DNA of 41,130 nt, from positions 1 through 41,130 of the forward strand of contig JAAWTG010000023.1 of the NCBI GenBank assembly GCA_022801925.1, in the 5' to 3' direction. Positions 498-39,636 of this stretch are shown in pieces. The position numbers and the translations under genes are program-made. How positions within the stretch are numbered: position 1 is the first letter of the stretch; each line of letters starts with the position of its first letter. The notes under the pieces are model-generated. The model was not told the origin of the DNA and made no database searches. It saw only the letters and a list, made by a program, of their open reading frames with translations. Origin of the DNA: Clostridia bacterium (lineage in GTDB: Bacteria; Bacillota; Clostridia; RUG12999).

Positions 498-1886
498 ATG
501 AAAAAAATGTTAGCTGTAGCACTCGGACTTACTTTAATGTTATCAGCGGTAGGATGTTCTGCTCCAAAAGAGAATACAAACTCTTCGGGGAAGACACAAA
601 TTTCTATAGGTGTATGGCCAAGAGAAAAAGACGCCGAAAGGTATGCGCAATACCAAGATTTGAAAGCGCGATTTGAAGAGGCGAATCCTGATGTTGAGAT
701 TATTCCTGACAACTGGTCTTTTAGCTTGGAAACATTCCTTGCAAAAGCGGCAAGCGGAAATCTCCCCACACTTTACGAGGTCTATTTCACAGAAGGACAG
801 CGCGTGATTAACGCAGGATATTGCGCCGACCTTACGGATGCAGTGAAAAAATATGGTTATGAGTCAAAAATTAAAGACTCCATTAAAAACCTTATCACGA
901 AAGACGGAAAATATTATATGGTGCCCCAATCCTCCTATAATATGGGACTGTATATCAATAAACCACTCTTTACAAAGGCGGGTCTTGTCAATGAAGACGG
1001 CAGTGTGAAGGTGCCGCAGACATATGAGGAACTGGCGGAGTTTGCAGGTATTATTAAAGAGAAAACGGGTCAGGCGGGTATTTGTATTTGCACGGCGAAC
1101 AATACAGGCGGCTGGAACTTCCTCAACGTCGCGTGGGCATACGGAACGGAATTTATGAAACAGGATGAGAGCGGCAAATGGAAAGCAACGTTTGATTCGC
1201 CGGAATGCGCAGCGGCGCTCCAGTGGATTAAAGATTTGAAATGGAAATACAATGCCATTCCGGAAACATCATTTGCAACCGGAACGGAACAGCAAAAATA
1301 TTTTGGCGCGGAACAAGCAGGTATGTTTATCGGTACGCCGCCGCAGGACGAGCTTATCAGCATTTACAATATGAAAGCCGATGATATTTGTATTGCTTCG
1401 CTTCCGGCGGGACCGGACGGTCGGTATTCGCAGGTCGGCGGAACTCTGTCGGTGGTCAAGGAAGGCAGCACGCCGGAGCAGATAGACGCAGTGTTCAAAT
1501 GGATTGAATTTGTGAGCAACAGTTATACAATGAGTGAAGATGCAAAACAGACAATGGAAAATTCCTATCAGATAAGAGCAAATAAAGGGCTGCCGATAGG
1601 ATTTTATCAGTATTCACCATGGGCGGACAGTGCGGAAAAAGCAACGTTTGAAAAAAGCATTGTTGACAAATATGCAAACATTCCGGCAGCAAATGTGAAA
1701 GAATTTAATAATCCGCCGGAAGATTTGAAGCTCAAACCGGAGGAACCGGTAAACTGTCAGGAACTGTATGCAGCGCTAGATGCTTGCATTCAGGAGGTTA
1801 TTACCAACAAAGACGCAGATCCGGCTGTGCTGCTGAAACAGGCGGCAGCGGATTTCCAGAGAGATTATCTGGACAGCGCAGAATAA
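498..1886 (+). CDS. Sugar ABC transporter substrate-binding lipoprotein
   Basis: This 462-residue protein is the extracellular capture component of a sugar or oligosaccharide importer. The start at 498 is chosen because GGAAGGAG (483-490) is 7 bases upstream; the ATG at 492 is too close. A lipoprotein signal peptide ends in AVGC, with the lipidated cysteine at residue 20. The mature part has the size and pattern of family 1 extracellular solute-binding proteins (MalE-like): a N-terminal lobe with the FEEANPDVEI segment, a TLYEVYF hinge segment and Trp-rich regions typical of carbohydrate sites. Two permease genes follow at once, separated by a very stable hairpin at 1901-1929. The substrate is not readable, but the downstream secreted glycosidases suggest oligosaccharides released by them. 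Confidence 0.93.
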   Translation: MKKMLAVALGLTLMLSAVGCSAPKENTNSSGKTQISIGVWPREKDAERYAQYQDLKARFEEANPDVEIIPDNWSFSLETFLAKAASGNLPTLYEVYFTEGQRVINAGYCADLTDAVKKYGYESKIKDSIKNLITKDGKYYMVPQSSYNMGLYINKPLFTKAGLVNEDGSVKVPQTYEELAEFAGIIKEKTGQAGICICTANNTGGWNFLNVAWAYGTEFMKQDESGKWKATFDSPECAAALQWIKDLKWKYNAIPETSFATGTEQQKYFGAEQAGMFIGTPPQDELISIYNMKADDICIASLPAGPDGRYSQVGGTLSVVKEGSTPEQIDAVFKWIEFVSNSYTMSEDAKQTMENSYQIRANKGLPIGFYQYSPWADSAEKATFEKSIVDKYANIPAANVKEFNNPPEDLKLKPEEPVNCQELYAALDACIQEVITNKDADPAVLLKQAAADFQRDYLDSAE

Positions 1887-1900
1887 AATTAGGATAGCTA

Positions 1901-1929
1901 TTTCAGCGGCGGGACGCCCGCCGCTGAAA
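1901..1929 (+). promoter_or_regulatory. Stable intercistronic RNA hairpin
   Basis: TTTCAGCGGCGGG (1901-1913) pairs perfectly with its complement at 1917-1929 around a 3-base loop ACG. The 13-bp stem is GC-rich. It lies 14 bases after the binding-protein stop and is followed by A-rich sequence, not a T run, so it is not a normal intrinsic terminator. Such hairpins behind binding-protein genes usually protect the upstream mRNA and make the binding protein more abundant than the permeases; that role here is inferred. Confidence 0.8.
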
Positions 1930-1955
1930 AATATAAATAATTGGAGAAATGTGTC

Positions 1956-2849
1956 GTGCTAAAAAAACACAGATTCGGAAAATTGAAAAACGATTTTTCC
2001 GCATACATACTAATGTTTCCGGCAATTTTTCTCATATTTTTGTTGATTTGGAGACCGGTATATCAGGGATTCATTTTATCTTTTTTTAAACTGCAAGGGT
2101 ATGAACCTGCTGAATTTGTCGGTTTGCAGAATTATAAAGATATCATTTCGGAAACATTGTTTAAAACAACGGTTTTCAATACTTTTAAATATGTCGGACT
2201 ATCGCTTTTGGTGGGATTTATTCCGCCGATATTTATAGCGGTGATGTTAAATGAAGTGCGTTGGTGCAAGGGATTTATTAAGTTTGCAATCTATTTCCCT
2301 GCCATTTCGCCGGTCATTGTGACGTCTTTGCTGTGGACGTTTATCTATGACCCCAGCGCGGGCGGATTGTTAAACATGATTCTGCTGAAAATGGGGCTTC
2401 CGGCGCAGCAATGGCTGAACGACGCGAATCATGCGATTTTGTATATTATTATTTCCATGACATGGTCGGGATTCGGCTCGGCAACCATTTTGTATTTGTC
2501 CAGCATCAAAGGTATCGGTACAGACATGTACGAAGCCGCCTACATTGACGGCGCGGGACTTTGGGCAAGGGTATGGCATATTACCATTCCGCAGATTTGG
2601 AGAATTGTCCTGCTGATGCTGGTGAATAATATCATCGGTGTTTTTCAGGTTTTTGCCCAGCCGCTGGCCATGACAGGCGGAGGACCTAACAATGCGACGG
2701 TTTCCCTGTCGCTTTTGGCATACCGATATGCGTTTGTATATCTAAAGAACGAAAAAGCGCTGGCAATCGGTATGATAACATTTGTCATGCTTGTGGTATT
2801 GACCGTGTTCTACTTTTTCTTAGAAAAGAGGGTGACATATGAAGACTAA
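1956..2849 (+). CDS. Sugar ABC transporter permease, MalF/UgpA type
   Basis: This is one of two membrane subunits of the module 1 importer. A GTG start at 1956 is preferred: GGAG (1943-1946) is 9 bases upstream, and an in-frame TTG at 1941 overlaps that site. The 297-residue product has a short basic N-terminus, a first membrane helix at about residues 16-37 and five further hydrophobic helices. The EAA loop that docks the ATPase starts at about residue 193 (EAAYIDGAG, later TIPQ), which fits the consensus EAA-G-I-LP. It overlaps the next permease gene by 11 bases, so the two are translationally coupled. Confidence 0.93.
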   Translation: MLKKHRFGKLKNDFSAYILMFPAIFLIFLLIWRPVYQGFILSFFKLQGYEPAEFVGLQNYKDIISETLFKTTVFNTFKYVGLSLLVGFIPPIFIAVMLNEVRWCKGFIKFAIYFPAISPVIVTSLLWTFIYDPSAGGLLNMILLKMGLPAQQWLNDANHAILYIIISMTWSGFGSATILYLSSIKGIGTDMYEAAYIDGAGLWARVWHITIPQIWRIVLLMLVNNIIGVFQVFAQPLAMTGGGPNNATVSLSLLAYRYAFVYLKNEKALAIGMITFVMLVVLTVFYFFLEKRVTYED

Positions 2850-3723
2850 AGTAAGCGAACCCTCAGGAATGATCTGTCAACTGGAATTTAAAACCACCAA
2901 GGTGAAAATCATTCACGGGATATTTTTTGCCGTGATGATGCTGTTGTGTGCGATTTGCTTGCTGCCGGTTATTTGGATGTTTTTGTCCGCGTTTAAAGAT
3001 ACAAAAGAATTTTTGAAAATACCGCCGAGTTTCCTGCCGGAAAAAATTGATTTTTCAAAAGTAGTGGATACGTGGATGCAAAACAATATTGGCAGAACCT
3101 TTTTGAACACAACATTTATGGCGGCGGGCGACATTTTGTTTACCATTGTGTCCAACGGTCTTGCAGGATATGTCATATCAAGACTGAAACCGCGCGGTTC
3201 CAAATTGTTTTTTATGCTAATCATGTGGACAATGATGCTGCCGAACAATGTGAGTCAGGTACCGCTGTTTATGACGTTTACAGACTTTCCGGTGACGCAT
3301 TGGAATTTGTCTAATACATATTTGCCCATGTGGATGCTTGCCGGTGCGAACTGCTACTATCTGCTGCTGTTTAAGAGTTTTTTCGACTCCATTTCCATAT
3401 CGTTCTTTGAATCGGCAAAGATAGACGGCGCTTCCAATTTCAAGATGTTTACCAGAATTGTGCTGCCGCTGAGCATACCAATCATGGCGGTGATTTCCAT
3501 CTTTCAGTTCAACGGCGCATGGGGAAACTATTTCTGGCCCATGCTTTTGATAAACAACCATTTGCAGGTAATCGGACAGCGGATTTTGACGATGAAAGGA
3601 CAAATGGTAATTGACAGATATGTAATGGTGATGGCGTTTGTGATTATTCCGCCGTCTGTCATTTACATCATTTTCCAAAGACATATTATCGGAGGTTTGA
3701 CACTCGGTGGAGTCAAAGGGTAG
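2839..3723 (+). CDS. Sugar ABC transporter permease, MalG/UgpE type
   Basis: This 294-residue protein is the second membrane subunit. Its ATG at 2839 lies inside the end of the preceding gene, with GAGGGTG just upstream as ribosome site. Six hydrophobic helices can be seen, the first at about residues 28-50. The cytoplasmic EAA loop appears as ESAKIDGAS at about residue 191, followed by VLPLS, and the protein ends in LTLGGVKG, a common MalG-family ending. No gene for the ATP-hydrolysing subunit occurs in the window, so a shared MsmX/UgpC-like ATPase encoded elsewhere is expected. Confidence 0.93.
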   Translation: MKTKVSEPSGMICQLEFKTTKVKIIHGIFFAVMMLLCAICLLPVIWMFLSAFKDTKEFLKIPPSFLPEKIDFSKVVDTWMQNNIGRTFLNTTFMAAGDILFTIVSNGLAGYVISRLKPRGSKLFFMLIMWTMMLPNNVSQVPLFMTFTDFPVTHWNLSNTYLPMWMLAGANCYYLLLFKSFFDSISISFFESAKIDGASNFKMFTRIVLPLSIPIMAVISIFQFNGAWGNYFWPMLLINNHLQVIGQRILTMKGQMVIDRYVMVMAFVIIPPSVIYIIFQRHIIGGLTLGGVKG

Positions 3724-3733
3724 GAGGTGTGGT

Positions 3734-6700
3734 ATGAAGAACCATATGAAAAAAATAATCAGTATTGTCATAACGTTTGTTATGCTTTTTTCTATCGGTT
3801 ATACATTTGCGGAAGAAGCGGAAGGAACGGCGAATGAAGCTTATGCGAATTTTACATCCGCTTCTGCGGAAAAGTCTAATATGAACGCAGTGCTAAGCGG
3901 CAGTTCTGCGCCGAGGATTGTGGAACGAGAGGGGAGATACGGCTGGGCATTGGGCGCAGACGAGGCGACAGCGTCCATTTGCGTTGACTTGGATAATGGT
4001 TTTGCCAATAATGTTTCCGACGGGAGCATTTTTGAAATTGAAGTGGATTACTATGATGCGGATTTGGGCGTATTCTCCTTGGTATATTCCGCACAGGACC
4101 GTCCGAACCGCTGGGCAGGTATGCAGATGACGGAAGGATTTGGCGCGAAAGGCGCGCGGAATACCACGGTGAAGGCGTGGAGAACAAAGACATTTTATCT
4201 GTATGACGCCAAGTTTAACGGCGATTTAGATGGATACGATTTCAAAGTTTCGTCTAATATATTAAATTCCAACCATGATATTACGCCCAATACGGATACG
4301 GGCTTCGGCACAAAATACAGTCGGTTTTATCCGGGCAGATACGGGCGCGTTTCCACGGTTGACGATGTAGTCATAGGCGCAGTACGTGTGAAAAAGCGGA
4401 CGGAGAAAAATCCACTTGCCATGAAAATCACTACGGAAAAACATGGTAATATCTTTTTTGACGATGAAGCGGTTGAAGTGCATACGGAGGTGACCAATCG
4501 GTTTGATATCCCCTATAATATGGACGCAAAATATTTCATTACGGACGAATACGGCAACGAAACAACGGTATATTCCGGCAAGTTGGAAATTGGTGCGAAT
4601 GAATCCAAAACCGATTCGGTTGTCCTGAAAAATGTGCCTTACGGCTGCTTTACGCTGACAGCATTATATACTGCCGAGGGAATACGGGCGCAGGCAGTGA
4701 CAGAACTTTCGCACTGCCGCGAGGCAAAGATTGCCAATCCGCGCGCCGGAACAAATGTCCACTTGGAGGGCAGCGACAGCTATAAAAATGACTATGAAGC
4801 AACGCTTGAACTTGCAAAAAAGGCGGGATACAGCAGTCTGAGAGACTCTGTCCGCTGGTTTGATAACGAGAAAGCGAAAGGTGTTTATACGCTGCGTGCA
4901 ACAACGGCAAAAGAAATTGAAATGGCGAAAGAGTATGGTTTGGATTTGCTGCCGGTACACAACTCTACGAATGAACCTGTTTACGGCGAAGCCTCCAAAC
5001 CGCTGCGGACACCGGAAATGTTGCAAACGTATCAGAATTATTGTACATGGCTGACCGAGCAATTGCAGGGCGCCTGTGTCGCGGTGGAAGCGCATAACGA
5101 ATGGAATTTACATATTCCAACCGGAACAGGCGAAGAGTATACCATGATGATGAAATCGCTCTATGAAGGAACCAAAAAAGCAAATTCGGGAATAAAAGTT
5201 GTGGGGATTGATACCGGTGGTTTGGATTTGGGACTGATGAAAAAGTATTTTGAAGCGGGCGCACTGGAATATATGGATGCGGTCAGCTATCACCCCTACG
5301 ACTGGGCGAGAAGCTTTGAGGACGGCAACCAGATGCGCGGCGCGAAAGCGGTGCGCGAATTGATGGCGGAATACGGTCATGGCGATAAGGAAATCTGGGT
5401 GACGGAAACAGGCTGGCACGAAGGGCTGAACAACAGAGTGACCCATGAGGACAAGGCGTATTATCTGTCCAGAGCGCTTTTGCAGAATGCGGCGCTGAAA
5501 ACATTCGACAGAATCTATTTCTATGAATTTGTTGACGGTGGTATGGAGCCGTCCTACGGTGAATCCTCTTACGGAACATTGAATTCTGTTTATTGCGACG
5601 TTCCCTATGGCGCACAAAAGGCATATATTGCGGCGGCGAATACCAACTGGCTTTTGGGCGGCGCAGAATTCGACCGGTCGATAGACGGCGAACCGAATTT
5701 GGACGCGGGCAAATATGTATACCGGTTTAACCGCAGCAACACAGACGGCAGAGGGAAACAGATGGTTGCGCTGTGGACGAATCAGGACGCGGTGGAGTAT
5801 GGACTGGATTTAGGTGTGGACAAGGCGACCATGATTGATATGTTCGGTAATGAACGCACACTTTACGCAGTGGATGGAAAATTTAGTTTTTGCCTGACAG
5901 ACCGACCGGTATATCTCATTGGTGACTTTAAAGAATTTAAAGCGTGCGAACCGACTGTTAAAATGGACAGACTTTCAGCAAACGCTACGGCACAGGATGC
6001 TGTCAGCATAGAACTCACGGCGGCGACTGTGGGAAATATGGCGATAACGCCCGTCAATCCGCTGGAGTTCCCTGTAGCGGAAAACGCAGGATTTTCCGGC
6101 GGTAAGGCAGTCTATACGGTAAAAACGCCAGACACACCGTTTTTTAATAAATCTGTTTTCTTTGAAATCAGCGACGGCGAAAAATTGTATTACACAGGAA
6201 AAGTGAAAGTCAATAACACCGATATACTAACGATTACAGAGCGGCATGAAATCAGTGACGCCAAAGACGTGAACAGATGGAAACTAACGCTGGACGTAAC
6301 AAATAACAAAAATGTCGATACGATAAATGCCAATATCACAATCAATAAACCGGATATTTTGGCAAAATACCGTTCATCGATTGACATTTCCGATTTAAAA
6401 CCGGGAGAGACGAGAAGCTATGTGATGTTTCTGCCTGAAATCGTGTCAAAGGAAATGCGCGACTTTGATATTGACGTAAAGATAGCGGGTCGCGATAGCT
6501 ATAAACTGTCGCACAAAATGTATTTTACAAGCGTTCCTTATGCATATACCAAACCGCAGATTGACGGCGTTGTATCGCCGGGCGAATATAGTAACGATGC
6601 ATGGTTTGATATTAAGGCGGGAGCAAATAAAGAACATTACCAGCCGCTCATAGATACCGTTCAGCACATGGGCGATGATGATTTAAGCGGCAAGGCAACC

Positions 6701-7183
6701 ATCAAATATGATGATGAGAACTTATATTTCTTTATTGAAGTAACGGATGACGTCTTTGTCAACAACAATGTCGGAGAGAATATCTGGAATGGGGACAGTA
6801 TCCAGATAGGTATTGCGGACGAAGGTGCTGAAGCCAGCAGCGCATATTGCGAACTGACTGTTGCCCTGACGCGCGAAGGACCTCAAATGTACAGGCATTT
6901 GGCGAATAATTCCAATAATCCGGTGGGAAGCGTGAAAAACTGCGAAATGCAGATTGTCAGAGATGAATACAAGACCTATTATGAACTCGCAATTCCGTGG
7001 AGCGAAGTACTCACGAATCCGGAAAATGCAGGACCGGGATATCAGCCGAGATTTGCCTTCCTGATTAATGATGACGACGGCGCAGGAAGAAACGCTTATA
7101 TGGAATATTCACAGGTACTCGGCGCAATCGGAACACATAAAAATGTTGCGTTCTTTTCTGACATGTATCTTGCTGAAAAATAG
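3734..7183 (+). CDS. Secreted clan GH-A glycoside hydrolase with C-terminal CBM9-like module
   Basis: The ATG at 3734 follows GGAGG that begins in the stop of the previous gene. The 1149-residue product has a signal peptide (about residues 1-27), an unrecognised beta module (about 40-215), an Ig-like domain (about 220-335), a TIM-barrel catalytic domain (about 336-640), a beta domain, two Ig-like segments (about 735-935) and a CBM9-like domain (about 936-1149, beginning KPQIDGVVSPGEY). In the barrel, HNEWN carries the likely acid/base Glu456 and WVTETGW the likely nucleophile Glu558; SYHPY is a typical clan GH-A strand end. The fold resembles GH39/GH5-like enzymes, but the exact family and substrate cannot be named. 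It shares its first three domains with the enzyme at 15139. It probably cuts polysaccharide outside the cell for the importer encoded just upstream. Confidence 0.85.
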   Translation: MKNHMKKIISIVITFVMLFSIGYTFAEEAEGTANEAYANFTSASAEKSNMNAVLSGSSAPRIVEREGRYGWALGADEATASICVDLDNGFANNVSDGSIFEIEVDYYDADLGVFSLVYSAQDRPNRWAGMQMTEGFGAKGARNTTVKAWRTKTFYLYDAKFNGDLDGYDFKVSSNILNSNHDITPNTDTGFGTKYSRFYPGRYGRVSTVDDVVIGAVRVKKRTEKNPLAMKITTEKHGNIFFDDEAVEVHTEVTNRFDIPYNMDAKYFITDEYGNETTVYSGKLEIGANESKTDSVVLKNVPYGCFTLTALYTAEGIRAQAVTELSHCREAKIANPRAGTNVHLEGSDSYKNDYEATLELAKKAGYSSLRDSVRWFDNEKAKGVYTLRATTAKEIEMAKEYGLDLLPVHNSTNEPVYGEASKPLRTPEMLQTYQNYCTWLTEQLQGACVAVEAHNEWNLHIPTGTGEEYTMMMKSLYEGTKKANSGIKVVGIDTGGLDLGLMKKYFEAGALEYMDAVSYHPYDWARSFEDGNQMRGAKAVRELMAEYGHGDKEIWVTETGWHEGLNNRVTHEDKAYYLSRALLQNAALKTFDRIYFYEFVDGGMEPSYGESSYGTLNSVYCDVPYGAQKAYIAAANTNWLLGGAEFDRSIDGEPNLDAGKYVYRFNRSNTDGRGKQMVALWTNQDAVEYGLDLGVDKATMIDMFGNERTLYAVDGKFSFCLTDRPVYLIGDFKEFKACEPTVKMDRLSANATAQDAVSIELTAATVGNMAITPVNPLEFPVAENAGFSGGKAVYTVKTPDTPFFNKSVFFEISDGEKLYYTGKVKVNNTDILTITERHEISDAKDVNRWKLTLDVTNNKNVDTINANITINKPDILAKYRSSIDISDLKPGETRSYVMFLPEIVSKEMRDFDIDVKIAGRDSYKLSHKMYFTSVPYAYTKPQIDGVVSPGEYSNDAWFDIKAGANKEHYQPLIDTVQHMGDDDLSGKATIKYDDENLYFFIEVTDDVFVNNNVGENIWNGDSIQIGIADEGAEASSAYCELTVALTREGPQMYRHLANNSNNPVGSVKNCEMQIVRDEYKTYYELAIPWSEVLTNPENAGPGYQPRFAFLINDDDGAGRNAYMEYSQVLGAIGTHKNVAFFSDMYLAEK

Positions 7184-7194
7184 GAGGTTAATTT

Positions 7195-8811
7195 ATGTTT
7201 AAAATCAAAAGAGCAGCGGTCATATTGGCAGCCGTTTTGTGCTTTGGCATGACGGTTTCGGCGCAAATCAGCGTAGAAAACTGCAACGCCGTATTTTCAG
7301 AAAATCAGGTTACCGTAACCGGAACCACAGATGCTGTGGGCGAAGATATATTAATAACCGTTTATTTGAAAGGGTCGGATAAAGAGAATTTTGCTGAAAA
7401 TCTCGGTTGGCAGAACATGCTGACGGCAGATGAAACCGGCGCATTTACAGAAACTTTTAAAATGAGCAGCGCAGGGATTTATACCGTCACCGTTGCGACG
7501 GCAGACGAATCTGCAAGCGTTGATTTTTCCTATACCAATAAAGACAGTGCGGTAGCGGCGATTGAGGCTGTCAACGCGGCAACAGACGTTGCAAGCGTTT
7601 TAGCCCAAAATAAAGTAGCGCTTGCCTTGGGCATTGCAGGGATTGATGCAGAGTTAAACTACAGCCATATTGCAAATTGTATCAAAAACGTGCTGCCGCT
7701 TGGCACGGCGGATATTAATGCGACGTTAAAACAACTCCAGCAGTTTTCCTTGTTTGGATATCTTAGTAGCGGTCAAATAGAAAATATATTTGACTATGAA
7801 GATATTCTTGACATCTATCAAATCGCGAACAACAATATTTTTCAGGAAGAATTTTTCACGCCGGCGCATGAACTTGCTGCGACAAGCAGAATCAGCGGAA
7901 AATCCATCAGCGATTATAATGATTTTTCGAGCAAAATCAAGGAAGCCATGATTTTGGCAGTGGTACAAAATCCAAATGGATTCGGCAATGTGAAGAAGGT
8001 TTTGGAAGTGCACAATGCGTTCATTGGAATTGATACGGCGGATACGTCCGACAGTGTATACAGAAATCTGCAAAATAAGAATTTCAGCAGTATTGCAGCA
8101 CTGAAAGAGGCGTTCACAAAAGAAAAAGCAGGTGGAACGCAAGGCGGACAGACGACGCCGGGCAACCGTCCGGGCGGCAGCAGCAGTAACCACGGCAGCG
8201 GCGGCGGTCGCGATATAAACCTCACCATTGACCCAGTCGCGCCGGTGAATCGTCCGGTTAGCAGCGGTATTGACGGAATTTTCCATGATTTGGCGGGCTA
8301 TGATTGGGCGAAAGAAGCCATTACAAGCTTATACAGCAAACAAATTATTCAGGGAAAAGCGGCGGGCGTGTTTGCCCCGCAGGATAGTGTGACACGGGCG
8401 GAATTTGTCAAAATGCTGACGGCTGCGCTGGAGATTCAGGAGGGTACGGAAGACATGAATTTCAGCGACGTTGCACAGAGCGACTGGTCGTATCCCTATA
8501 TCAAAAAAGCATATCAGGCGGGTATTGTAAAAGGTATCAGCGATACAGCGTTCGGCGGAGATACATACATTTCCAGACAGGACATGGCGGTGATGGTTTG
8601 CCGTGCGCTGGAAGCGGCGGGACGCAGCACAGCCGGCGCGGCAGAGGGAAAATTTGCCGACGACGCGTCCATTGCAGCGTATTCAAACGAGTCCGTATAT
8701 GTACTTAAAGCGATGGGCGTGTTAAACGGAGATGAGCAGGGACGTTTCAATCCGGTGAATCATGCGAGTAGAGCAGAGGCAGTAAAAGTAATTTATTTGA
8801 TATCAAAATAA
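7195..8811 (+). CDS. S-layer-anchored secreted protein with three C-terminal SLH repeats
   Basis: A 538-residue secreted protein, started at 7195 behind AGGAGG that overlaps the previous stop. The signal peptide ends near VSA-Q (residue 23-24). Residues about 24-110 form a beta-rich domain with Thr/Val-rich strands, about 115-310 an alpha-helical region, and about 315-345 a Gly/Ser/Asn-rich flexible linker. Three SLH repeats fill about 360-538 (FHDLAGYDWAKEAI, NFSDVAQSDWSYPYI and KFADDASIAAYSNESV mark their starts). SLH repeats bind pyruvylated secondary cell-wall polymer, so the protein is displayed on the S-layer. No catalytic motif is visible; a capture or scaffold role in the operon is inferred. 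Confidence 0.85.
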   Translation: MFKIKRAAVILAAVLCFGMTVSAQISVENCNAVFSENQVTVTGTTDAVGEDILITVYLKGSDKENFAENLGWQNMLTADETGAFTETFKMSSAGIYTVTVATADESASVDFSYTNKDSAVAAIEAVNAATDVASVLAQNKVALALGIAGIDAELNYSHIANCIKNVLPLGTADINATLKQLQQFSLFGYLSSGQIENIFDYEDILDIYQIANNNIFQEEFFTPAHELAATSRISGKSISDYNDFSSKIKEAMILAVVQNPNGFGNVKKVLEVHNAFIGIDTADTSDSVYRNLQNKNFSSIAALKEAFTKEKAGGTQGGQTTPGNRPGGSSSNHGSGGGRDINLTIDPVAPVNRPVSSGIDGIFHDLAGYDWAKEAITSLYSKQIIQGKAAGVFAPQDSVTRAEFVKMLTAALEIQEGTEDMNFSDVAQSDWSYPYIKKAYQAGIVKGISDTAFGGDTYISRQDMAVMVCRALEAAGRSTAGAAEGKFADDASIAAYSNESVYVLKAMGVLNGDEQGRFNPVNHASRAEAVKVIYLISK

Positions 8812-8842
8812 GGAAAATTTATTTTGGAAAGGGGAACACGAA

Positions 8843-11467: not shown

Positions 11468-11507
11468 AAGAGAACCTGAGATTTTAAAAGAAAGGGGCGT
11501 ATCAGCA

Positions 11508-12467: not shown

Positions 12468-12470
12468 CAA

Positions 12471-12486
12471 TGACAGGCTGCTGTCA
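12471..12486 (+). other. Small intercistronic hairpin
   Basis: TGACAG (12471-12476) and CTGTCA (12481-12486) form a 6-bp stem with a 4-base loop just after the stop of the small SLH gene. There is no T run, so it is not a terminator. It may mark an RNA processing site or have no role. Confidence 0.4.
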
Positions 12487-12523
12487 GTAAAGTTGAAAAT
12501 GAGCGGAGAAAGGTGACGATACT

Positions 12524-15109: not shown

Positions 15110-15138
15110 TCTCTATGCAGCCATGTAAGGGAGACGAG

Positions 15139-22625: not shown

Positions 22626-22661
22626 GAGATGATTTCTTTCAATAGAAATCATCTCTTTTTT
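22626..22661 (+). terminator. Intrinsic terminator, perfect 12-bp stem
   Basis: GAGATGATTTCT (22626-22637) pairs perfectly with AGAAATCATCTC (22644-22655) around a 6-base loop, followed by six T. It closes transcription before module 2. Confidence 0.92.
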
Positions 22662-22823
22662 CGTTTGTAACAATAAAACGAAAAAAAATAGAGAGACATT
22701 AAATTGGGCACCAAAACAGTATGAGAAAAGCGCTGTATGACCCAAGAATTGATAGAAAATGGTAAATGTAGGCGCTGGGATATGAGATGTCTTGTTTTGT
22801 TAACTAATTCTAAAAATTGTTAC

Positions 22824-22852
22824 TGGACATAGCTTTATTTTTTCTTTACAAT
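22824..22852 (+). promoter_or_regulatory. Promoter of the module 2 operon
   Basis: TGGACA (22824-22829, five of six consensus bases) and TACAAT (22847-22852, five of six) are separated by exactly 17 bases. Transcription would start near 22860, about 20 bases before the first permease ATG. Confidence 0.72.
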
Positions 22853-22880
22853 AATAAGTGAAGGAAATACTTAAGGTCTT

Positions 22881-23855: not shown

Positions 23856-23870
23856 TGGGGAGCGCGGAAA

Positions 23871-24752: not shown

Positions 24753-24768
24753 TTAAAGGAGATTATTT

Positions 24769-26322: not shown

Positions 26323-26354
26323 ATCATAGATAAATGTATTGATGGGGAGAAATG

Positions 26355-28613: not shown

Positions 28614-28667
28614 AGGAAATGGATTTTAGGATAGATGAAACAGGAATGATAATGTGAGGAGGAATTT

Positions 28668-31391: not shown

Positions 31392-31394
31392 AAA

Positions 31395-34004
31395 ATGCGG
31401 AACAAAAAAATAGGCAGTATTCTTTTAGCTGTATTTTGTATGGTAAACTTGATGACAGGCGTCATCGTCCATGGTGAAATGGGAGAAGCGCGTTATGTAT
31501 CGGCAGACGGCGCATTTGACAGAACAGACGCCGAATATGTGGACGGTGCGCTGCCTTCCGTTGCCAAAGGTTGGACCTATAGTGGAGGAACTTCTTTAAC
31601 ATGGGAGTTCGGCGTCGGCGGAAAGGCAGCAACCGACAGAAGTGCAAAAATTATTGGTGGCAGCGGTAGTCTGAACTTCCAAAAGAGATTGGAGGGAGAC
31701 GAAGGCAGAAACGTTGTTCCCGAAGGCGGATATCAGGTAGTGGAATTTAGTGTTTATTCTGAAGATATCGGTATTGAAAAACGTTTGGAACTCAAGAGCG
31801 GAAGCAATTGGTGGACAAACGGCGGTAAACAGACAATGAGGATTGGCGGCAATAGCGATTCACAAGCATTTATATTGAATGCCACTAATATCCCGACAGA
31901 TACAATTCAATTTAAAGAAAAGAAATGGTATACAATTACCATGATTTTTCAGGAGGGGTCAACGGATTACAAAGCATATATAAACGGTATTCCGGTTGGG
32001 ACATTTAAAGGTCATGTGAGCGGGGGCTATGCAGGTATTGATACAATAAAATTTTCGCTGCCCGGAAATGCAAATGCAAATTCCTTGGTGCTGGACGATA
32101 TGAAAGTATATGATTTAACAGGCGAAACAGACGGCGATGCAACGGTTTCGGAATGTACTTATACTATGGAAGCGGAGAATATTTCGGAGATTCCATATCT
32201 TACAACAGCAGCGCAATTGAAACAGGGGATTACCACAAGCAAGACAGGTGCAAGTGTGAATGTGGAATCCAAAAGTGGAATCCAACTGACGGATACCGAC
32301 TATGTTGAAACAGGTATGATAATGGTGGTAACGGCCCCCAATGGTGTTACCAAACGCCGATATACTTTAAATGTACAACCGGAATCCGGCGACAATTCCT
32401 CCAATGCCAAAGCAAGCGTGAACAATGTTTTAGCAGGAAACGCCATTGACGATGACAAGACATCCTGCTGGGTAGGGAATTGGGACACAAAAGAAGAAAC
32501 TTGGATTAGCGTAGATGCAGGAGAACCTACAGAATATAACTCTATTGCTATTACCGGCGAAAATATTTCGGAAGATATTGGGCTTATGATTTCTGATGAT
32601 GACGCTGATTATCAGCAGGTTAGCATTTTGGGAATGGAACGGGAGGAAGCTGAAAACAAAGCGACCATTTCTTTTGAAACGCTGTCAGCAAGGTATTTTA
32701 AATTGGTTATGCCGGACAGTGCGCGTCCACCGAAAATTTATGACATTGATTTTATCTATACCGATTATACACCGGAGATAAAAATCGAGGGGAAATTCTA
32801 TGCAGGGTTAAAACTAAAAGGTGTATATCAATTCTTTGATTTTGACGAAACGGTGGAGGGCAACAGCTGTGCATACAGATGGCTGGTGTGCGAAGGCGAA
32901 AGCGAGCAGCCTATTTCCGGCTCTGACAGCACAGAATATGTGCTGACGGAAAACGAAACAGGCAAAAAAATCAAATTTGAAATAACGCCTGTCAAAGGCG
33001 ATACGCCAGGAAAATCCTATACCAGCGAGGCATATGGTCCTGTGCAGCCCAATCCGGCAACCGTGGACGCAGCTGCCATTAACATTGGCGTACCTGAAAG
33101 CGACTATGAGAAAATCAAAAAAGATTTAGTGCTTGCAACACAAGGCGCCTCAGGTGCAACAATCAGCTGGGAATCCAGCAATCCGAATGTCATTGCAACG
33201 GATGGCGCGGTACTGCGGACAACAAAAAATGAACCGGTGACGCTGACCGCTACGGTTTCTTTTGAGGACGGTCCTGTCGTGAAAAAACGCTTTGATTTAG
33301 TTGTTTTGAAAAAAGAAGTTGCCAATAATAATACCGGTGGAAGTGCATCCGGCGGCGGAGGAGGCAGAGTCACAAGCAAAGGGGAAAACTACGCTGTTCC
33401 GTATTATCAACTCGGACAGCAGGATATGACACCGTTCCAAAACCAGCAGCCGGCAGTAAAAGAATTTCAGGATTTGGACAGCGTTCCGTGGGCAAAAGAT
33501 GTGATTGTGCAATTATATCATAAAGGCATTATCAACGGCACTTCCGAAACGGCATTTTCTCCCGAAAACAATATTACGCGGGCGGAATTTACTAAGATAA
33601 TTGTCACTTTGTTTGATTTAAAATTGCAAAACGGTGCTTCGGATTTTACAGATGTGGCAAATAACGAATGGTATACCGACTACATTTATACAGCTGTGCA
33701 AAATGGTATCATCAACGGATATTCTGACGAAACCTTCGGTGTGAATGACAGCATTACGCGCGAACAGGCGGCAACGATTCTATACAGAGCGCTGAAGAAA
33801 AAAGGGGAAACATTAAAAGCGGAGGAAACGGCATTTTCCGACAAAGACAATATCGCTGATTATGCGGCGGAAAGCATAAATGCGTTGACATCGAATGAAA
33901 TTTTATCAGGCAATCCTGATGGCACTTTTAACCCGAAAGGAAATACCACACGTGCTGAAACTGCAGTGATGGTATATCGGGTGTATACAAAATATTGTGA
34001 ATAA
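31395..34004 (+). CDS. SLH-anchored multidomain glycan-binding protein (LamG-like, discoidin-like, Ig-like)
   Basis: The ATG at 31395 is 3 bases after the previous stop, with GGAGG 8 bases upstream. The 869-residue product has a signal peptide (about residues 1-27), a LamG-like beta sandwich (about 35-245, ending SLVLDDMKVYDL), an Ig-like part (about 250-330), a discoidin/F5-8C-like domain (about 334-455; AIDDDKTSCWVGNWD, WISVDAGEPTEYNSI), an Ig-like domain (about 455-555), an atrophied bacterial Ig-type domain with ISWESSNPNVI (about 560-640), a Gly-rich linker (about 645-660) and three C-terminal SLH repeats (about 689-869; the last starts AFSDKDNIADYAAES). It is a display protein with several probable carbohydrate-binding units and no visible active site. 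Confidence 0.85.
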   Translation: MRNKKIGSILLAVFCMVNLMTGVIVHGEMGEARYVSADGAFDRTDAEYVDGALPSVAKGWTYSGGTSLTWEFGVGGKAATDRSAKIIGGSGSLNFQKRLEGDEGRNVVPEGGYQVVEFSVYSEDIGIEKRLELKSGSNWWTNGGKQTMRIGGNSDSQAFILNATNIPTDTIQFKEKKWYTITMIFQEGSTDYKAYINGIPVGTFKGHVSGGYAGIDTIKFSLPGNANANSLVLDDMKVYDLTGETDGDATVSECTYTMEAENISEIPYLTTAAQLKQGITTSKTGASVNVESKSGIQLTDTDYVETGMIMVVTAPNGVTKRRYTLNVQPESGDNSSNAKASVNNVLAGNAIDDDKTSCWVGNWDTKEETWISVDAGEPTEYNSIAITGENISEDIGLMISDDDADYQQVSILGMEREEAENKATISFETLSARYFKLVMPDSARPPKIYDIDFIYTDYTPEIKIEGKFYAGLKLKGVYQFFDFDETVEGNSCAYRWLVCEGESEQPISGSDSTEYVLTENETGKKIKFEITPVKGDTPGKSYTSEAYGPVQPNPATVDAAAINIGVPESDYEKIKKDLVLATQGASGATISWESSNPNVIATDGAVLRTTKNEPVTLTATVSFEDGPVVKKRFDLVVLKKEVANNNTGGSASGGGGGRVTSKGENYAVPYYQLGQQDMTPFQNQQPAVKEFQDLDSVPWAKDVIVQLYHKGIINGTSETAFSPENNITRAEFTKIIVTLFDLKLQNGASDFTDVANNEWYTDYIYTAVQNGIINGYSDETFGVNDSITREQAATILYRALKKKGETLKAEETAFSDKDNIADYAAESINALTSNEILSGNPDGTFNPKGNTTRAETAVMVYRVYTKYCE

Positions 34005-34017
34005 AGGAGGGACAGCA

Positions 34018-37000
34018 TTGAAATCTTTATGCAGTCTCATTTTGGCGGCTGTCTGCTTGTGTTCCGTCCTGCCTTCGGCCGCCGTATCTGCGACAGGTGA
34101 TGCTACATTAAATATCGCGGCGGTGACAGGAGAAATGCGCAGCGAAAAAGGCGAAACAGCCGCAAAAGATAGTGATGCACTGAAAGCCGTTGCTGACGGA
34201 AATTGGTCTACGCAGTTTTTTGCTTCGTCCGACACGCAAAGCGGCAATATTATGGCGGAGTTGTCCGCTCCTGCCACGATAAGTCAAGTGATTTTGAAAC
34301 AGGGAAACAGCGTGAGAGAACTGACTTGCAGTGTTGATGTTTCGCTTGACGGTAAAGTGTGGGAAACTGCGGTGCAGGCTGAAAAAACAAAAAATCCCAT
34401 CATTGCATTTGACGTTGACTATATGCAGGCATTATATGTGCGATTCAACATTTTGAAAATTACGGCAGTAGGACCCTATAAAGGATTTAGCATCAGTGAA
34501 TTTGAAATTTACGGCGAGAGTACAGAAACGGACGGGGAAAACAGCGGTGCGGTACAAGAACCGCAGAACAATGATTTTTATCATCAGCATCGATATGACT
34601 ATATTAGTGAAGACCAGATTCAGTCAATCAAGACGTCACTGACCGGCGGTATAGCCATGGCAATTAACAACGCCAAAGCGATTGTGGATACGAATAAAGT
34701 GTCCATAGACAGTCAAAACAGCAGTGTGGCACCTAGAATCATAGATGACATCATGTATGTTCCGTCGAAATTCACAGCGGAGCGACTGGGTGGTACCTAT
34801 GTGTTTGACAGTGAGACGGAAACAGTCACCATCAGCAGCGGCGACAACCGTGCACAGTATCGTGTGGAAACGGCGGTACGGTCAGATGATGCGCAATATC
34901 ATTTGGTTTCGGCTGAACCGGATATAGAAGAAATTATGCTTGATATAGAAGGTGTTTTGTATCTTCCGGCGACAGCGTTGGCTGAATTACTCGGAAAACA
35001 ATGTTATACGGACGAAAGAGGTTTTGTTGTCATCAGCAATGATGTGTCCATTTATGAGTTTGAAGCAAAGACAGCACTTGATACGGAGCGGAATCTTTCC
35101 AATTGGGTTGTAAATCGAATTGTGTTTGACGGAGCGGACGAAAAACAGATATTAAAAGACTTCAGCAAGACCGGCATGAAGGGACAGCATCCACGCGTTT
35201 TGGCAAATACGGATAAAGTGAATCAAATGATTGCGCTATCAGGGACAGATGAACGCATGAAAAAATACTACAATGATATTATTCAGCAAGCGGATTCGCT
35301 TCTGCCGATAGAGCCGCCCTCTTACCAAAACAGAAATCAAACAATGAACAGAATCAGAATACTGGCTATGGCGTATCAGTTGACAAAGGATTCTAAATAT
35401 GGTGCGCGCGGCTGGAAAGAAATTGAATTGTTATGCAGCTATCCCAATTGGACGCCTGCGGAAGTGTTTGATTTGTCCTATTACAGCAAAGCCGCGGCGC
35501 TTGCCTATGATTGGTTTTATGATTATATGACGCCACAGCAAAGAAAGACATTGAAAAATTCAATGGTAGAGAAGTCATTGAATGTTTTTCTGTCAGCGCA
35601 TCAAACTGCCTCACGCGGTGGGGAAAACGGCGGAAATGATACCCACCATGTTATCATTAATACGAATCATAACATCACCCAAAATACAGGGGCAATTATG
35701 CTCGCTTTGGCATTGCTGGATGAAAAAGACGTTACGGACAAATGTGCCGAAGTGATTGCATCGGCGCTCAAAGGGATTGAGTATTATTTACCTTATATGG
35801 CAATGTTCGGTTCGGGAAAAGAAAGTATTTACTATTGGTATTACCCAATGGAATCAACTGTCGAAACAATTCGTTCCTTAGAAGGTATTTTGGGCAGCGA
35901 TTATGGTATCAGTAATATGCCGGGCATGGAGGTAACAGGAAATTTTCCTATCCATATGACAGGCTCCACCGGCATGGCGTTTAACTGGGGAAATGCACAA
36001 ACGGGCTATTATGTTTCTTCTGAGGTAACTTGGCTTGGCAACCGTTACGGCGACAAAACATTATCTGCCGCCCGCATTAACGGACTTGAGGACAGAAATA
36101 TTTTGGCGCATCCCTATGATTTGTTATATTATGAACCTGAAAAATTAGATACCGATTTCCTTCCGACATTGGATAAAACCTTCGGTCGGACAGAAAGCGT
36201 GGGAATGTTTAGCGCGCTGCGTGACAGCAATGCTTTATATGTTGGCTTAAAGGGCGGATATAATAATGACGTTCATAATGCATTGAGCACCGGAGCCTTT
36301 GTATTGGACGCACTGGGAGAACGCTGGGCGTGGCTGATTGGACAAGAAAACTACAATGTGCCGGGATATTGGAATTACAGCGAGAACGGACAGCGGTGGA
36401 CATACTACAGAATGCGCGCGGAGGCGCAAAATGCTTTGGTGATTAACCCGGGAGATAAGCCTGATCAGTACCCGTTTGGTTATTCCAAAATTGAAAAATT
36501 TGAAAGTAAGCCAAGAGGCGCTTATACTATCATAGATGCAACGCCGGCATTTGCAACTGATAATAAGGTGAAAAAAGTGCGGCGCGGCGCATTTTTAACC
36601 GAAAACCGCACAAAGGTGATTATTCAGGATGAAATAGAAGCAACCAATTCCAATTACTATTTTATGATGCAAACGCAAGCAGATATCCAAATTCAGCCGG
36701 ACGGAAAAACTGCGATATTAGAACAAAACGGCAAGAAAATGTTTGTAGAACTGCAATCAACCAATCCAGACGCGAAGTTTACGACCATGGACGCTGTGCC
36801 GCTATCCACTTCGCCGCATCCGGAACAAAATTCTCCAAACAATGGTGTTCGCAAACTGGTGGTCAATGCGAAAAATACGAACGACTTAACGGTTTCGGTG
36901 ATTTTCACACCAATGACAAACGAACAAAGCAATATTACCTCCGCCAAAATGGTAAGTATGGATAATTGGGAAATTCCGGACGGAGAGTTGAAAGCAATGC

Positions 37001-37620
37001 AACTGGAAAGCTTGACGGTAGACGGAAAGATGATTGAAGGATTCGCGCCGAACCGAACAGATTATAAATTATTCCTGCCATATGACTATCCGGACACCAT
37101 TCCGGAAATTGCAGCAACATCGGAATTTGAAACCACTGTCACGCTGCCGACGGAACTGCCCGGAACAGCAACCGTGACCATGACGGATGCGGAAACAAAC
37201 CGTACTGTCATCTGCAATATTCTAATGCAGCGGGAACAAAATATCGGCGTGAAAGCAAGTGCAGTGCCTGAACCCGAAAATCCACCGACCAATACGCTGG
37301 ACTATGATTTGGGAACGCGATGGGCGGCCGAAGGAGAACAATGGATTGAATATAATTTAAAAGAATCGGTACAGTTAGAATCTGTTTCAATTGCATGGGC
37401 TTCCGGAAATGCGCGCAAAGCAATATTTGATATTGAAGTTTCCGATGACGGTGAAAACTGGACAAAAGTTTGGGGCGGAGAAAGCAGCGGCGCAACGCTC
37501 GACTTTGAAGAATTTTCGTTTAACGCTGTGCAGGCGCAATATGTGAAAATTGTCTGCCACGGAAACAGTTCCAACAAATGGAATAGCATCAATGAAATTC
37601 AATTCAAATATAAAAAATAA
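34018..37620 (+). CDS. Giant secreted heparinase II/III-like polysaccharide lyase
   Basis: A TTG start at 34018 is clear: AAGGAGG (34004-34010) lies 7 bases upstream and a signal peptide follows directly (KSLCSLILAAVCLCSVLPS). The 1200-residue product has a discoidin-like domain (about 30-170), a copper-amine-oxidase-N-like domain (about 209-345, VPSKFTAERLGGTYVFD), the alpha/alpha-toroid lyase domain (from about 385, HPRVLANTDKV), the heparinase beta domain (to about 985), a cadherin-like beta domain (about 994-1075) and a second discoidin-like domain (about 1077-1200). Likely active residues are Asn550-His551 in NTNHN, Tyr in YYWYYPMES (about 604-610) and His753 in DVHNALSTGAFVLDALGE, the usual heparinase His pattern. 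The family fold cleaves uronic-acid-containing polysaccharides; the substrate is not known. The cytosolic gene at 37723 is its paralogue. Confidence 0.87.
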   Translation: MKSLCSLILAAVCLCSVLPSAAVSATGDATLNIAAVTGEMRSEKGETAAKDSDALKAVADGNWSTQFFASSDTQSGNIMAELSAPATISQVILKQGNSVRELTCSVDVSLDGKVWETAVQAEKTKNPIIAFDVDYMQALYVRFNILKITAVGPYKGFSISEFEIYGESTETDGENSGAVQEPQNNDFYHQHRYDYISEDQIQSIKTSLTGGIAMAINNAKAIVDTNKVSIDSQNSSVAPRIIDDIMYVPSKFTAERLGGTYVFDSETETVTISSGDNRAQYRVETAVRSDDAQYHLVSAEPDIEEIMLDIEGVLYLPATALAELLGKQCYTDERGFVVISNDVSIYEFEAKTALDTERNLSNWVVNRIVFDGADEKQILKDFSKTGMKGQHPRVLANTDKVNQMIALSGTDERMKKYYNDIIQQADSLLPIEPPSYQNRNQTMNRIRILAMAYQLTKDSKYGARGWKEIELLCSYPNWTPAEVFDLSYYSKAAALAYDWFYDYMTPQQRKTLKNSMVEKSLNVFLSAHQTASRGGENGGNDTHHVIINTNHNITQNTGAIMLALALLDEKDVTDKCAEVIASALKGIEYYLPYMAMFGSGKESIYYWYYPMESTVETIRSLEGILGSDYGISNMPGMEVTGNFPIHMTGSTGMAFNWGNAQTGYYVSSEVTWLGNRYGDKTLSAARINGLEDRNILAHPYDLLYYEPEKLDTDFLPTLDKTFGRTESVGMFSALRDSNALYVGLKGGYNNDVHNALSTGAFVLDALGERWAWLIGQENYNVPGYWNYSENGQRWTYYRMRAEAQNALVINPGDKPDQYPFGYSKIEKFESKPRGAYTIIDATPAFATDNKVKKVRRGAFLTENRTKVIIQDEIEATNSNYYFMMQTQADIQIQPDGKTAILEQNGKKMFVELQSTNPDAKFTTMDAVPLSTSPHPEQNSPNNGVRKLVVNAKNTNDLTVSVIFTPMTNEQSNITSAKMVSMDNWEIPDGELKAMQLESLTVDGKMIEGFAPNRTDYKLFLPYDYPDTIPEIAATSEFETTVTLPTELPGTATVTMTDAETNRTVICNILMQREQNIGVKASAVPEPENPPTNTLDYDLGTRWAAEGEQWIEYNLKESVQLESVSIAWASGNARKAIFDIEVSDDGENWTKVWGGESSGATLDFEEFSFNAVQAQYVKIVCHGNSSNKWNSINEIQFKYKK

Positions 37621-37642
37621 ATGATACAATCCTGCAGATAGA

Positions 37643-37669
37643 TTCCTCTCCTTTTCACAAGGCGGGGAA
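37643..37669 (+). promoter_or_regulatory. Intercistronic hairpin between secreted and cytosolic lyase genes
   Basis: TTCCTCTCCTT (37643-37653) pairs with AAGGCGGGGAA (37659-37669) with one GU pair and one mismatch around loop TTCAC. It is followed by CCTATTTTGTT, a poor T tract. It may be a weak terminator that lowers expression of the cytosolic enzyme relative to the secreted one. Confidence 0.5.
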
Positions 37670-37722
37670 CCTATTTTGTTCAGCGAATATAAGGGGTTTT
37701 TGAAGGGATAAGGAGTTATGCA

Positions 37723-39636
37723 ATGAACAGTGATGTAAAATTTAAGTATGAAAGCAGACCGCAAACAAAATTATGCATAGATGGGGCGGAACCGATTCGT
37801 AAGGTGATGTACAGACACATCTCCATGGAAGAATTGAGGAAAGAATTTCATCAAAAAAATACGGGACATCCGCGTGTGCTGGCAACGAGTGGAGATTTTG
37901 AAGATATTATTGCAAGAATAAAAACCGATGCCAGAACAAAAAAGTTTTTTGATGAAGTTGTGCGGGAAGCAGAAGAACTTTTACAAACACAGCCGCCGCA
38001 AACACCGGAGCGGCATCTCAGCACAGAACGATTAAAAAATTTTTGCTTGGTATACCGGTTAACAAAGGAAGAACGGTTTGCAAACCGCGCATGGCAAGAA
38101 ATGGAGAGAATGTGTAGTTTCCAGACATGGTCGCCTACTGAAAAACTGGATATGGGGTACATATTAAAGGGCATGGCAATAGGCTATGATTGGCTATTCG
38201 ATTTTTTATCTTGCGAGCAGCGCGAGATAGTAAGAACCGCGATTCTTGATAAAGCCTTGCTGCCCGAACGTAAGGTTTATCAAAATCCTTATGAAGAAGG
38301 TGTGGACGCACATTATATTTTGCAAAACACGAATCATAACGTATCCATAAACTGTGGGCTGATGATGGCAGCGGCGGCACTGTTTGATGAATGCGAGGAG
38401 GTTTGCAGCGAGATTATAGAGAGTGCATTATGGGCGCTCGAAAACTATCTGCCGGAATTTTTGGAATATGGCGCCGGAAAAGAAGGGGTATATTATTGGT
38501 ATTGGCCCATGGAATCCACAAATGAAATCATGGGTACCCTGCGGGCGACTTTTGGGACAGACTATGGTATTAGCTGTACGTCCGGAATCGAAAAAACAGG
38601 CTATTTCCCTATATATATGACGGGTGCAACGGGAATGGCATTTAATTGGGGAAACGGACTTCCCCAAATGTATATCTCCGCTGATTTATTTCATTTGGCA
38701 AAAATACTAAATAAACCGGAACTTTGTAAGTTAAGGTTGAAAGCAATGGAAAAATATGATATAACAGCAAAGGCATATGACCTGCTTTGGTATTCGCCGT
38801 GCGGCTACGATTTGTCAGAACTTCCCAAAGATGGATATTTTCAGCGCACGGAATCAGTTGGTATGTGCAGCGACTGGGATAACAAAAATGCACTGTCGGT
38901 CTGTTTTAAAGGTGGATTTAACAGTGAGGTTCATGGCAGTTTGAACACCGGTTCGTTTGTGTTGGACGCGCTGGGAGAACGCTGGGCGTGGCTAATTGGA
39001 CAGGAAAGCTATGATGTTCCTGGATATTGGGATTATAGCGAAAACGGACAGCGGTGGACTTATTACAGAATGCGGGCGGAGGGTCAAAATGCTATGGTGC
39101 TAAATCCAAGTAATCACCCCGATCAGTATCCGCTGGCATATTCCAAAATCGAAAAATTTGAAAGCAAGCCACATGCAAGTTTTGCCATTATAGATGCCAC
39201 ACCGGCATTTTCAAATGATGAAACTGTGGCTTCGGCAAAACGTGGTTTTTATATGTTAGATAATCGGCAAAAAATAATGATTCAAGATGAAATACAAGCA
39301 CAGAATGCAGATTATTGGTGGTTTATGCAAACAAAGGCTACGATTGAGATTGTGGCAGATGGTAAAACGGCAGTATTAGAACAAAATGGTAAAAAAATGA
39401 TGGTATTTCTCCGGTCAAATGTACCTGCTGGATTTCAAGTGTTGGATGCAAAACCTTTGCCTATGTGTCCCAATCCACCGGAAAACAGTCCTAATGATGA
39501 AGTAAAAAAATTAACGGTGCATATTCCGAAGGCGAATGATATAACAGTTTCTTTGGTGTTTGTACCGTTAACCGATAGAATCGATATTGGGAGAATTCCT
39601 ACTTTAAAGACTATGGATACTTGGCATATTTTATAA
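37723..39636 (+). CDS. Cytosolic heparinase II/III-like lyase
   Basis: AAGGAG (37710-37715) sets the ATG at 37723. The 637-residue product has no signal peptide and no extra domains: it is the toroid plus beta-domain core of the preceding secreted enzyme. Matching active-site segments are Asn204-His205 in NTNHN, YYWYWPMEST, and His404 in EVHGSLNTGSFVLDALGE. From ALGERWAWLIGQE onward the two proteins are nearly identical over long stretches (YSENGQRWTYYRMRAE, YSKIEKFESKP, AVLEQNGKKM). It probably finishes degradation of imported oligosaccharides inside the cell. The pair most likely arose by tandem duplication, after which one copy gained a leader and accessory domains or the other lost them. 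Confidence 0.88.
   Translation: MNSDVKFKYESRPQTKLCIDGAEPIRKVMYRHISMEELRKEFHQKNTGHPRVLATSGDFEDIIARIKTDARTKKFFDEVVREAEELLQTQPPQTPERHLSTERLKNFCLVYRLTKEERFANRAWQEMERMCSFQTWSPTEKLDMGYILKGMAIGYDWLFDFLSCEQREIVRTAILDKALLPERKVYQNPYEEGVDAHYILQNTNHNVSINCGLMMAAAALFDECEEVCSEIIESALWALENYLPEFLEYGAGKEGVYYWYWPMESTNEIMGTLRATFGTDYGISCTSGIEKTGYFPIYMTGATGMAFNWGNGLPQMYISADLFHLAKILNKPELCKLRLKAMEKYDITAKAYDLLWYSPCGYDLSELPKDGYFQRTESVGMCSDWDNKNALSVCFKGGFNSEVHGSLNTGSFVLDALGERWAWLIGQESYDVPGYWDYSENGQRWTYYRMRAEGQNAMVLNPSNHPDQYPLAYSKIEKFESKPHASFAIIDATPAFSNDETVASAKRGFYMLDNRQKIMIQDEIQAQNADYWWFMQTKATIEIVADGKTAVLEQNGKKMMVFLRSNVPAGFQVLDAKPLPMCPNPPENSPNDEVKKLTVHIPKANDITVSLVFVPLTDRIDIGRIPTLKTMDTWHIL

Follow-up and report, generated by a model that had tools for sequence, protein, structure and literature searches.

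A stretch of 41,130 nucleotides from a Clostridia bacterium (contig JAAWTG010000023.1 of assembly GCA_022801925.1, numbered C15 among the contigs of that genome; the whole stretch is called the window here) carries two sugar-uptake modules on the forward strand, and each of them includes two adjoining genes for surface proteins with SLH motifs. One of these proteins, designated NSB, has N-terminal SLH motifs followed by a beta region, with the products of the genes at 8843 and 28668 as type members. The other, designated CSB, is large and secreted, has three SLH motifs at its C-terminus, and is encoded by a gene that abuts an NSB gene on the same strand. The NSB-CSB pair recurs throughout the source genome, mostly at loci for glycan degradation. 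The genome measures 2.95 Mb in 96 contigs, is 96% complete with 0.84% contamination, and is rich in SLH repeats (150 scored). Its nearest relatives by sequence are metagenome-assembled genomes (MAGs) of uncultured Clostridia, including one from goat cecum and an iMGMC bin, the latter presumably from a mouse-gut catalogue.

Gene content of the two modules

Genes are named by their start positions in the window. SBP denotes the sugar-binding protein of an ABC importer (PF01547, SBP_bac_1).

Module 1 (492-20229, + strand)
492-1886, +: sugar-binding lipoprotein of an ABC importer (SBP_bac_1; PF01547, E=7e-28; LSAVGC lipobox)
1941-3723, +: two ABC permeases, 1941-2849 and 2839-3723 (PF00528 at C15:2229-2837 and 3163-3687)
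3707-7183, +: secreted enzyme resembling a glycoside hydrolase (GH) clan, with a C-terminal CBM9-like domain (CBM9_1, E=1.6e-11; weak Glyco_hydro_cc)
7195-8811, +: CSB, three C-terminal SLH motifs (PF00395, E=3.4e-32, 3 copies), 31 bp from the NSB gene
8843-11467, +: NSB, N-terminal SLH trimer and a chain of small beta units (31-member family; AlphaFold model, SpaA-SLH match)
11508-12467, +: small secreted SLH protein (PF00395, E=1.7e-15, 2 copies)
12524-15109, +: secreted protein with Big_5 Ig-like domains, no SLH or other anchor (PF13205, E=6e-12)
15115-17871, +: secreted GH5-like (cellulase clan) enzyme (PF00150, E=4e-9)
17901-20229, +: cytoplasmic FAD-dependent oxidoreductase and metallophosphoesterase, end of the module (PF12831, E=6e-120; PF00149, E=2e-12)

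Module 2 (22881-39636, + strand)
22881-24752, +: two ABC permeases (PF00528)
24769-26322, +: sugar-binding lipoprotein (PF01547, E=1.4e-9; FAGC lipobox)
26352-28613, +: membrane Cache sensor with an AraC-type DNA-binding domain, the locus regulator (PF12833, E=2.7e-16; dCache_1)
28668-31391, +: NSB, N-terminal SLH and beta chain (PF00395, E=1.8e-10)
31395-34004, +: CSB, F5/8C (CBM32-type) and Ig-like domains, three C-terminal SLH copies (PF00395, E=4e-40; PF00754; PF20578), 3 bp from the NSB gene
33997-37620, +: secreted heparinase II/III-like polysaccharide lyase with two F5/8C domains (PF16332, E=3e-12; PF07940 below cut-off; PF00754)
37723-39636, +: lyase paralogue without signal peptide (PF16332; 47% identical to 33997)

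Each module joins an ABC importer, composed of an SBP_bac_1 lipoprotein and two BPD_transp_1 permeases (492-3723 and 22881-26322), to secreted enzymes, as an earlier note on this DNA had described from its letters. Its further observation that both modules hold an N-terminal-SLH/beta protein and a C-terminal SLH protein is borne out: 8843 and 28668 are 24% identical over their full length (E=4e-39), and 7195 and 31395, with three motifs each, adjoin them. The importers do differ in lineage and gene order, their permeases being 32% identical and their SBPs about 23% identical over part of the length only. The matching of 12524 with 31395 as LamG/Ig-like counterparts had to be abandoned. Their BLASTP comparison gives E=0.1, Pfam finds LamG in neither, and their domain sets differ, 31395 carrying F5/8C, aBig_2, IG_AIR9 and SLH; the note had in addition given 31395 a second role as a C-terminal SLH protein. 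The SLH proteins of the window are non-catalytic, as had been claimed, but this does not extend to the family, in which one CSB (locus L038) carries a heparinase domain.

A Gram-positive polysaccharide utilization locus (gpPUL) has been defined as comprising at least one polysaccharide-degrading enzyme, a carbohydrate transport system, and a transcriptional regulator (PMC5320581). Module 2 contains all three, in the lyases 33997 and 37723, the SBP with two permeases, and the Cache-AraC protein 26352. Module 1 contains enzymes (the GH-like 3707 and 15115, 25% identical to each other) and the transport system; no regulator is seen in it, but the locus starts at the contig end. The lyase 37723 probably acts on imported oligosaccharides.

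Pairing of NSB and CSB genes

In the source genome, 26 of the 31 NSB genes have as their direct same-strand neighbour a gene whose secreted product bears C-terminal SLH motifs (C-SLH). Chance would give about one such case, by an estimate that takes 44 C-SLH genes in a total of roughly 2,800. The two genes are separated by -19 to 76 bp (median 7.5 bp), and the CSB gene may stand upstream or downstream. The five NSB genes lacking such a neighbour lie on C14 (at the contig end), C42, C47, C5 (107810), and C55 (25469). The arrangement is also found in other families (genomes G018 and G035, counted by eye), with a C-SLH gene immediately adjacent to 13 of 20 sampled NSBs and at most two genes away in 15 of 20. 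In Mantel tests, NSB distances correlate with the distances among the SLH parts of the partner CSBs (r=0.32, p=0.003). The correlation of NSB with SBP distances is not significant (r=0.19, p=0.12), and CSB and SBP distances give r=-0.09. Divergence as a unit is thus seen for NSB and CSB more than for the importer set.

The CSBs themselves are heterogeneous. They range from 456 to 2534 aa, and their N-terminal parts hold Ig-like, F5/8C carbohydrate-binding-type, or lyase domains. The N-terminal part of 7195 has no homologue in the sampled loci, and the idea of a shared adapter domain ahead of the SLH motifs was rejected on this account. A distinct clade of NSB-adjacent CSBs was likewise considered but is not supported: the tree requires nine changes of the label, although shuffled labels are less clustered. 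CSB is therefore best regarded as a role filled by related proteins, not as one orthologous line.

Some C-SLH proteins of the source genome have no visible NSB: C24:19478-21370 (L104), C49:400-4641 (L093), C60:9534-12359 (L092), and C76:1-7770 (L095). On C24 the gene sits in a sugar-import locus; on C49 and C76 it is at or close to the end of the contig.

Size, divergence, and spread of the NSB family

The 31 NSB paralogues comprise 27 long members retrieved with 8843 and four from further loci. Identity between most pairs is near 25%, being highest in the SLH part (30%) and lower in the beta part (18-25%). Each locus has its own diverged copy, which fits a locus-specific surface set. An alignment of the whole family showed no conserved stretch when used as a scan query; an alignment of six members retrieved 13 loci, all from 'Clostridia' MAGs of gut or unstated origin. 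Of 147 genomes sampled from the class, 49 contain full-length NSBs, and these belong to 18 families.

One lone member departs from the general divergence. The NSB encoded at C47:9369-11933 (G000, L033), 854 aa long and with no adjacent C-SLH gene, is 43-47% identical to L067 and to the likewise unpaired genes L069 and L079 of other families. As this cross-family identity far exceeds the roughly 25% among paralogues, the C47 protein may be the ancestral or general form, and a candidate general wall protein, from which the paired copies arose as specialised duplicates; the assignment is based on similarity.

SLH proteins that have N-terminal motifs but fall short of a full NSB are also encoded at C73:2021-4093 (L103), C5:102091-103470 (L102), and C12:28671-29303 (L101).

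Association with importers, enzymes, and regulators

The earlier note had proposed that N-terminal-SLH/beta genes lie beside sugar importers more often than by chance. This test, set beforehand, supports the proposal, with 17 of 31 NSBs of the source genome within 8 kb of a PF01547 gene against 5.4 expected (p=3e-6), an enrichment of about threefold. Conversely, 18 of 30 PF01547 genes have an NSB no more than 8 kb away, and an SBP, including those from iterated profiles, occurs within 12 kb of 19 of the 26 NSB-CSB pairs. In the other families the enrichment is about fourfold (6 of 23 NSBs in G018, 1.6 expected, p=0.004; 7 of 23 in G035, 1.8 expected, p=0.001). Gene positions derive from family searches that did not retrieve every gene in their first round. 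The SBPs at C55:33398 and C80:42907 and the NSBs on C3 and C23 came to light only when individual loci were inspected. Since SBPs are missed in this way, the proximity counts are lower bounds.

About 70% of the NSBs in G018 and G035 lie more than 8 kb from an importer gene. Most NSBs there still adjoin a C-SLH protein, and several of those sampled stand beside a lyase or another glycan enzyme. Sampled loci without importer encode heparinase-like lyases (L083, L087), a GH141-type protein with CBM6 (L071), and an esterase-type domain (L078). This distribution indicates that NSB follows the glycan-degradation locus and not the importer as such. The suggested pairing of the surface set with an importer accordingly stands as an enrichment in proximity, whereas the constant partners are the CSB and secreted lyases or other glycan enzymes.

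Lyases are prominent among these partners. PL8 lyases stand beside NSBs at three loci of the source genome (L039, L046, L050), and heparinase II/III-type lyases at six or more (L036, L037, L047, L049, L053, and the window with 33997 and 37723); several carry F5/8C or CBM96 domains. Because PL8 and heparinase II/III-type lyases make up most of the sampled partner enzymes, the substrates are probably uronic-acid polysaccharides of a glycosaminoglycan-like kind. Cache-AraC relatives of 26352 number 15 in the sampled loci of the source genome, and 12 of them are within 8 kb of an NSB.

Two minor features of these loci may be added. Five pairs have an SBP and no permease within 12 kb (C30, C34, C55:38069, C80:46761, and C83:65775; L034, L053, L050, L054, and L037), and their SBPs may share permeases encoded elsewhere. 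The domain Cu_amine_oxidN1 (PF07833) recurs in secreted NSB-neighbour proteins, often within polysaccharide lyases (L039, L040, L046, L048, L050, L035, L071, L083, L088, and 33997-37620 of the window).

Structure of NSB and predicted anchoring to the wall

NSB has a signal peptide. The AlphaFold model of 8843 (predicted local distance difference test, pLDDT, 78) shows an N-terminal SLH trimer. The SLH sequence of this protein scores under the Pfam cut-off (16.3 versus 20.8 bits), yet its modelled structure matches SpaA-SLH, including the structures bound to pyruvylated ManNAc (probability 1.00; TM-score about 0.7-0.8 on the target). Whole-chain Foldseek comparison gives a meaningful match in the SLH part only, the other matches being low-TM beta proteins. 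According to DSSP, the remainder of the model consists of seven or eight small beta units, several of them ordered strand-strand-strand-helix-strand-strand. A segment of two units, 433-580, folded alone reaches a pLDDT of 91, and OB folds account for nearly all of its best matches in the PDB (domains of the Mpa inter-domain, cold-shock, S1, ligase, and PltB kinds). NSB can thus be read as an S-layer anchor that carries OB-like units in a chain.

The source genome has one PS_pyruv_trans gene, for a CsaB-like pyruvyltransferase. Given this gene and the SLH fold, NSB and CSB are predicted to bind a pyruvylated secondary wall polymer through their SLH motifs. No Omp85 was found in the source genome, which is hence read as monoderm. 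A reading of NSB as an OmpM-type outer-membrane porin was rejected for this reason, and because its beta part consists of small OB-like units without a large barrel.

Proposed function and alternative explanations

The interpretation that we favour, with somewhat better than even confidence, is that each module is a gpPUL with its own wall-anchored NSB-CSB pair, in which NSB serves as scaffold and CSB as variable module. NSB would be a conserved S-layer-like scaffold, a specialised duplicate of the lone C47 copy, and CSB would reach outward to hold, or help to cut, one polysaccharide. Together they would concentrate the polysaccharide and the secreted lyase at the wall, where the freed oligosaccharides could reach the lipoprotein SBP and the importer of the same locus. 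A cytoplasmic enzyme, 37723 in module 2, would complete degradation after import, and the Cache-AraC regulator would turn the locus set on in response to substrate.

Several observations weigh against this interpretation. About 40% of the SBP genes lie farther than 8 kb from any NSB, the NSB-adjacent C-SLH proteins do not form one clade, and several C-SLH proteins occur without NSB. Pfam recognises no glycan-binding domain in NSB; the OB matches are marginal (best E=2e-3, TM-score about 0.3 for the two-unit segment), and the possible ligands of OB folds include glycans, nucleic acids, and proteins, so that the fold does not determine the ligand. Contact between NSB and CSB is suggested by adjacency and correlated divergence, and linked genes duplicated together would give the same pattern without their products touching.

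An unlikely explanation, but the one that survives best among the alternatives, considers NSBs as interchangeable structural subunits of an S-layer, whose lattice is re-tiled at each locus to leave space or pores for its large enzymes, any glycan binding being left to CSB. Sap, SbsB, and SpaA share with NSB an N-terminal SLH trimer followed by beta domains and match it in the SLH part by sequence and by model, and the architecture of NSB is compatible with that of array-forming S-layer proteins. The absence of a recognised glycan-binding domain fits this explanation as well, and so does the conservation of the lone C47 form across families without a C-SLH neighbour. NSB differs from these proteins in having no sequence match to them beyond the SLH part, in its OB-like tested beta units, and in its numerous, locus-bound copies. 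A general S-layer protein would need one or few copies, not 31 diverged ones at glycan loci.

It is improbable that NSB is instead an enzyme scaffold holding the secreted lyases and hydrolases of its locus on the wall, in a cellulosome-like manner without cohesin and dockerin. Many partner enzymes do lack an anchor of their own (33997 and 15115, for example), and there is a precedent in Paenibacillus curdlanolyticus S1, a protein of 863 aa with N-terminal SLH and no other known domain, which is reported to assemble with a xylanase and to bind cell wall, cellulose, and xylan (PMC6823336). However, the assembly of S1 is reported there to need glycosylation, and its likeness to NSB, in size and N-terminal SLH, is one of architecture only (S1 = KP723173; PMC6823336). 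S1 is moreover a single protein, for which the accessible text reports no C-SLH partner or gpPUL (PMC6823336). Domain scans found no cohesin or dockerin in the proteins of the window or in the sampled partner proteins, in which respect NSB loci differ from those of cellulosome scaffoldins.

Passive association, with surface genes hitch-hiking in glycan islands and NSBs serving variable adhesion or antigenic purposes, would suit the high divergence of the paralogues and the unique N-terminal part of 7195, but is very unlikely given that 26 of 31 direct adjacencies, correlated divergence, and recurrence in other families favour a functional unit that has been kept.

Comparison with known systems and significance

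The earlier note had likened the surface proteins to SusC/SusD of Bacteroidota. The likeness of the NSB-CSB pair is one of idea: in both systems an adjacent, co-diverging surface pair is present in locus-specific copies at many glycan loci. It goes no further: the proteins are not homologous, import is by ABC systems without a TonB transporter, and an outer membrane is lacking; NSB, with SLH and beta units, is also unlike the alpha-helical SusD fold. A stronger form of the comparison regards the pair as an obligate locus-specific complex, a monoderm counterpart of SusC/SusD in which an OB-chain NSB is joined to a glycan-reading CSB, duplicated about 26 times within a single genome and employed by much of the uncultured gut Clostridia. 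We consider this possible but doubtful.

SLH-anchored glycan machinery is already known, for example in Clostridium and Paenibacillus enzymes. Monoglobus pectinilyticus, a member of the gut Clostridia (ISME J, 2019), is said to use SLH-anchored multidomain proteins for pectin, some of them induced by substrate; that study reportedly focused on SLH proteins with carbohydrate-active enzyme domains, and is not known to describe a repeated NSB-CSB pair. The searchable literature, which leaves out most subscription papers, yielded no description of such a pair or of OB-like units in an SLH protein, and priority is not established. The ways in which monoderm gut bacteria hold polysaccharides and retain the freed sugars are poorly understood beyond enzymes bearing carbohydrate-binding modules (CBMs). 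The gpPULs of Roseburia and Eubacterium rectale link enzyme, ABC importer, and regulator as module 2 does here, but their description mentions neither SLH nor S-layer and ascribes polysaccharide binding to the CBMs of enzymes (PMC5320581); the present loci add the SLH-anchored NSB-CSB pair.

A wall-anchored and repeatedly duplicated pair, mostly without catalytic domain, would represent a countable surface-capture system for these bacteria. NSB-CSB pairs could then mark and number polysaccharide utilization loci in uncultured Clostridia, as SusCD pairs do for Bacteroidota, and the presence of full-length NSBs in one third of the sampled genomes would make the marker widely usable.

Regions outside the modules

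The 2.6 kb between the modules (20230-22880) hold only short open reading frames, including one of 153 aa at 22053 that is membrane-like, and fragments resembling gene remnants. A further feature lies in this stretch:

22625-22656, +: terminator-like hairpin between the modules (13-bp stem followed by a T-run; the hairpin count is not above that of shuffles)

Directly after module 2, a membrane protein with a GGDEF domain is encoded at 39925-41085 and is probably unrelated to it.

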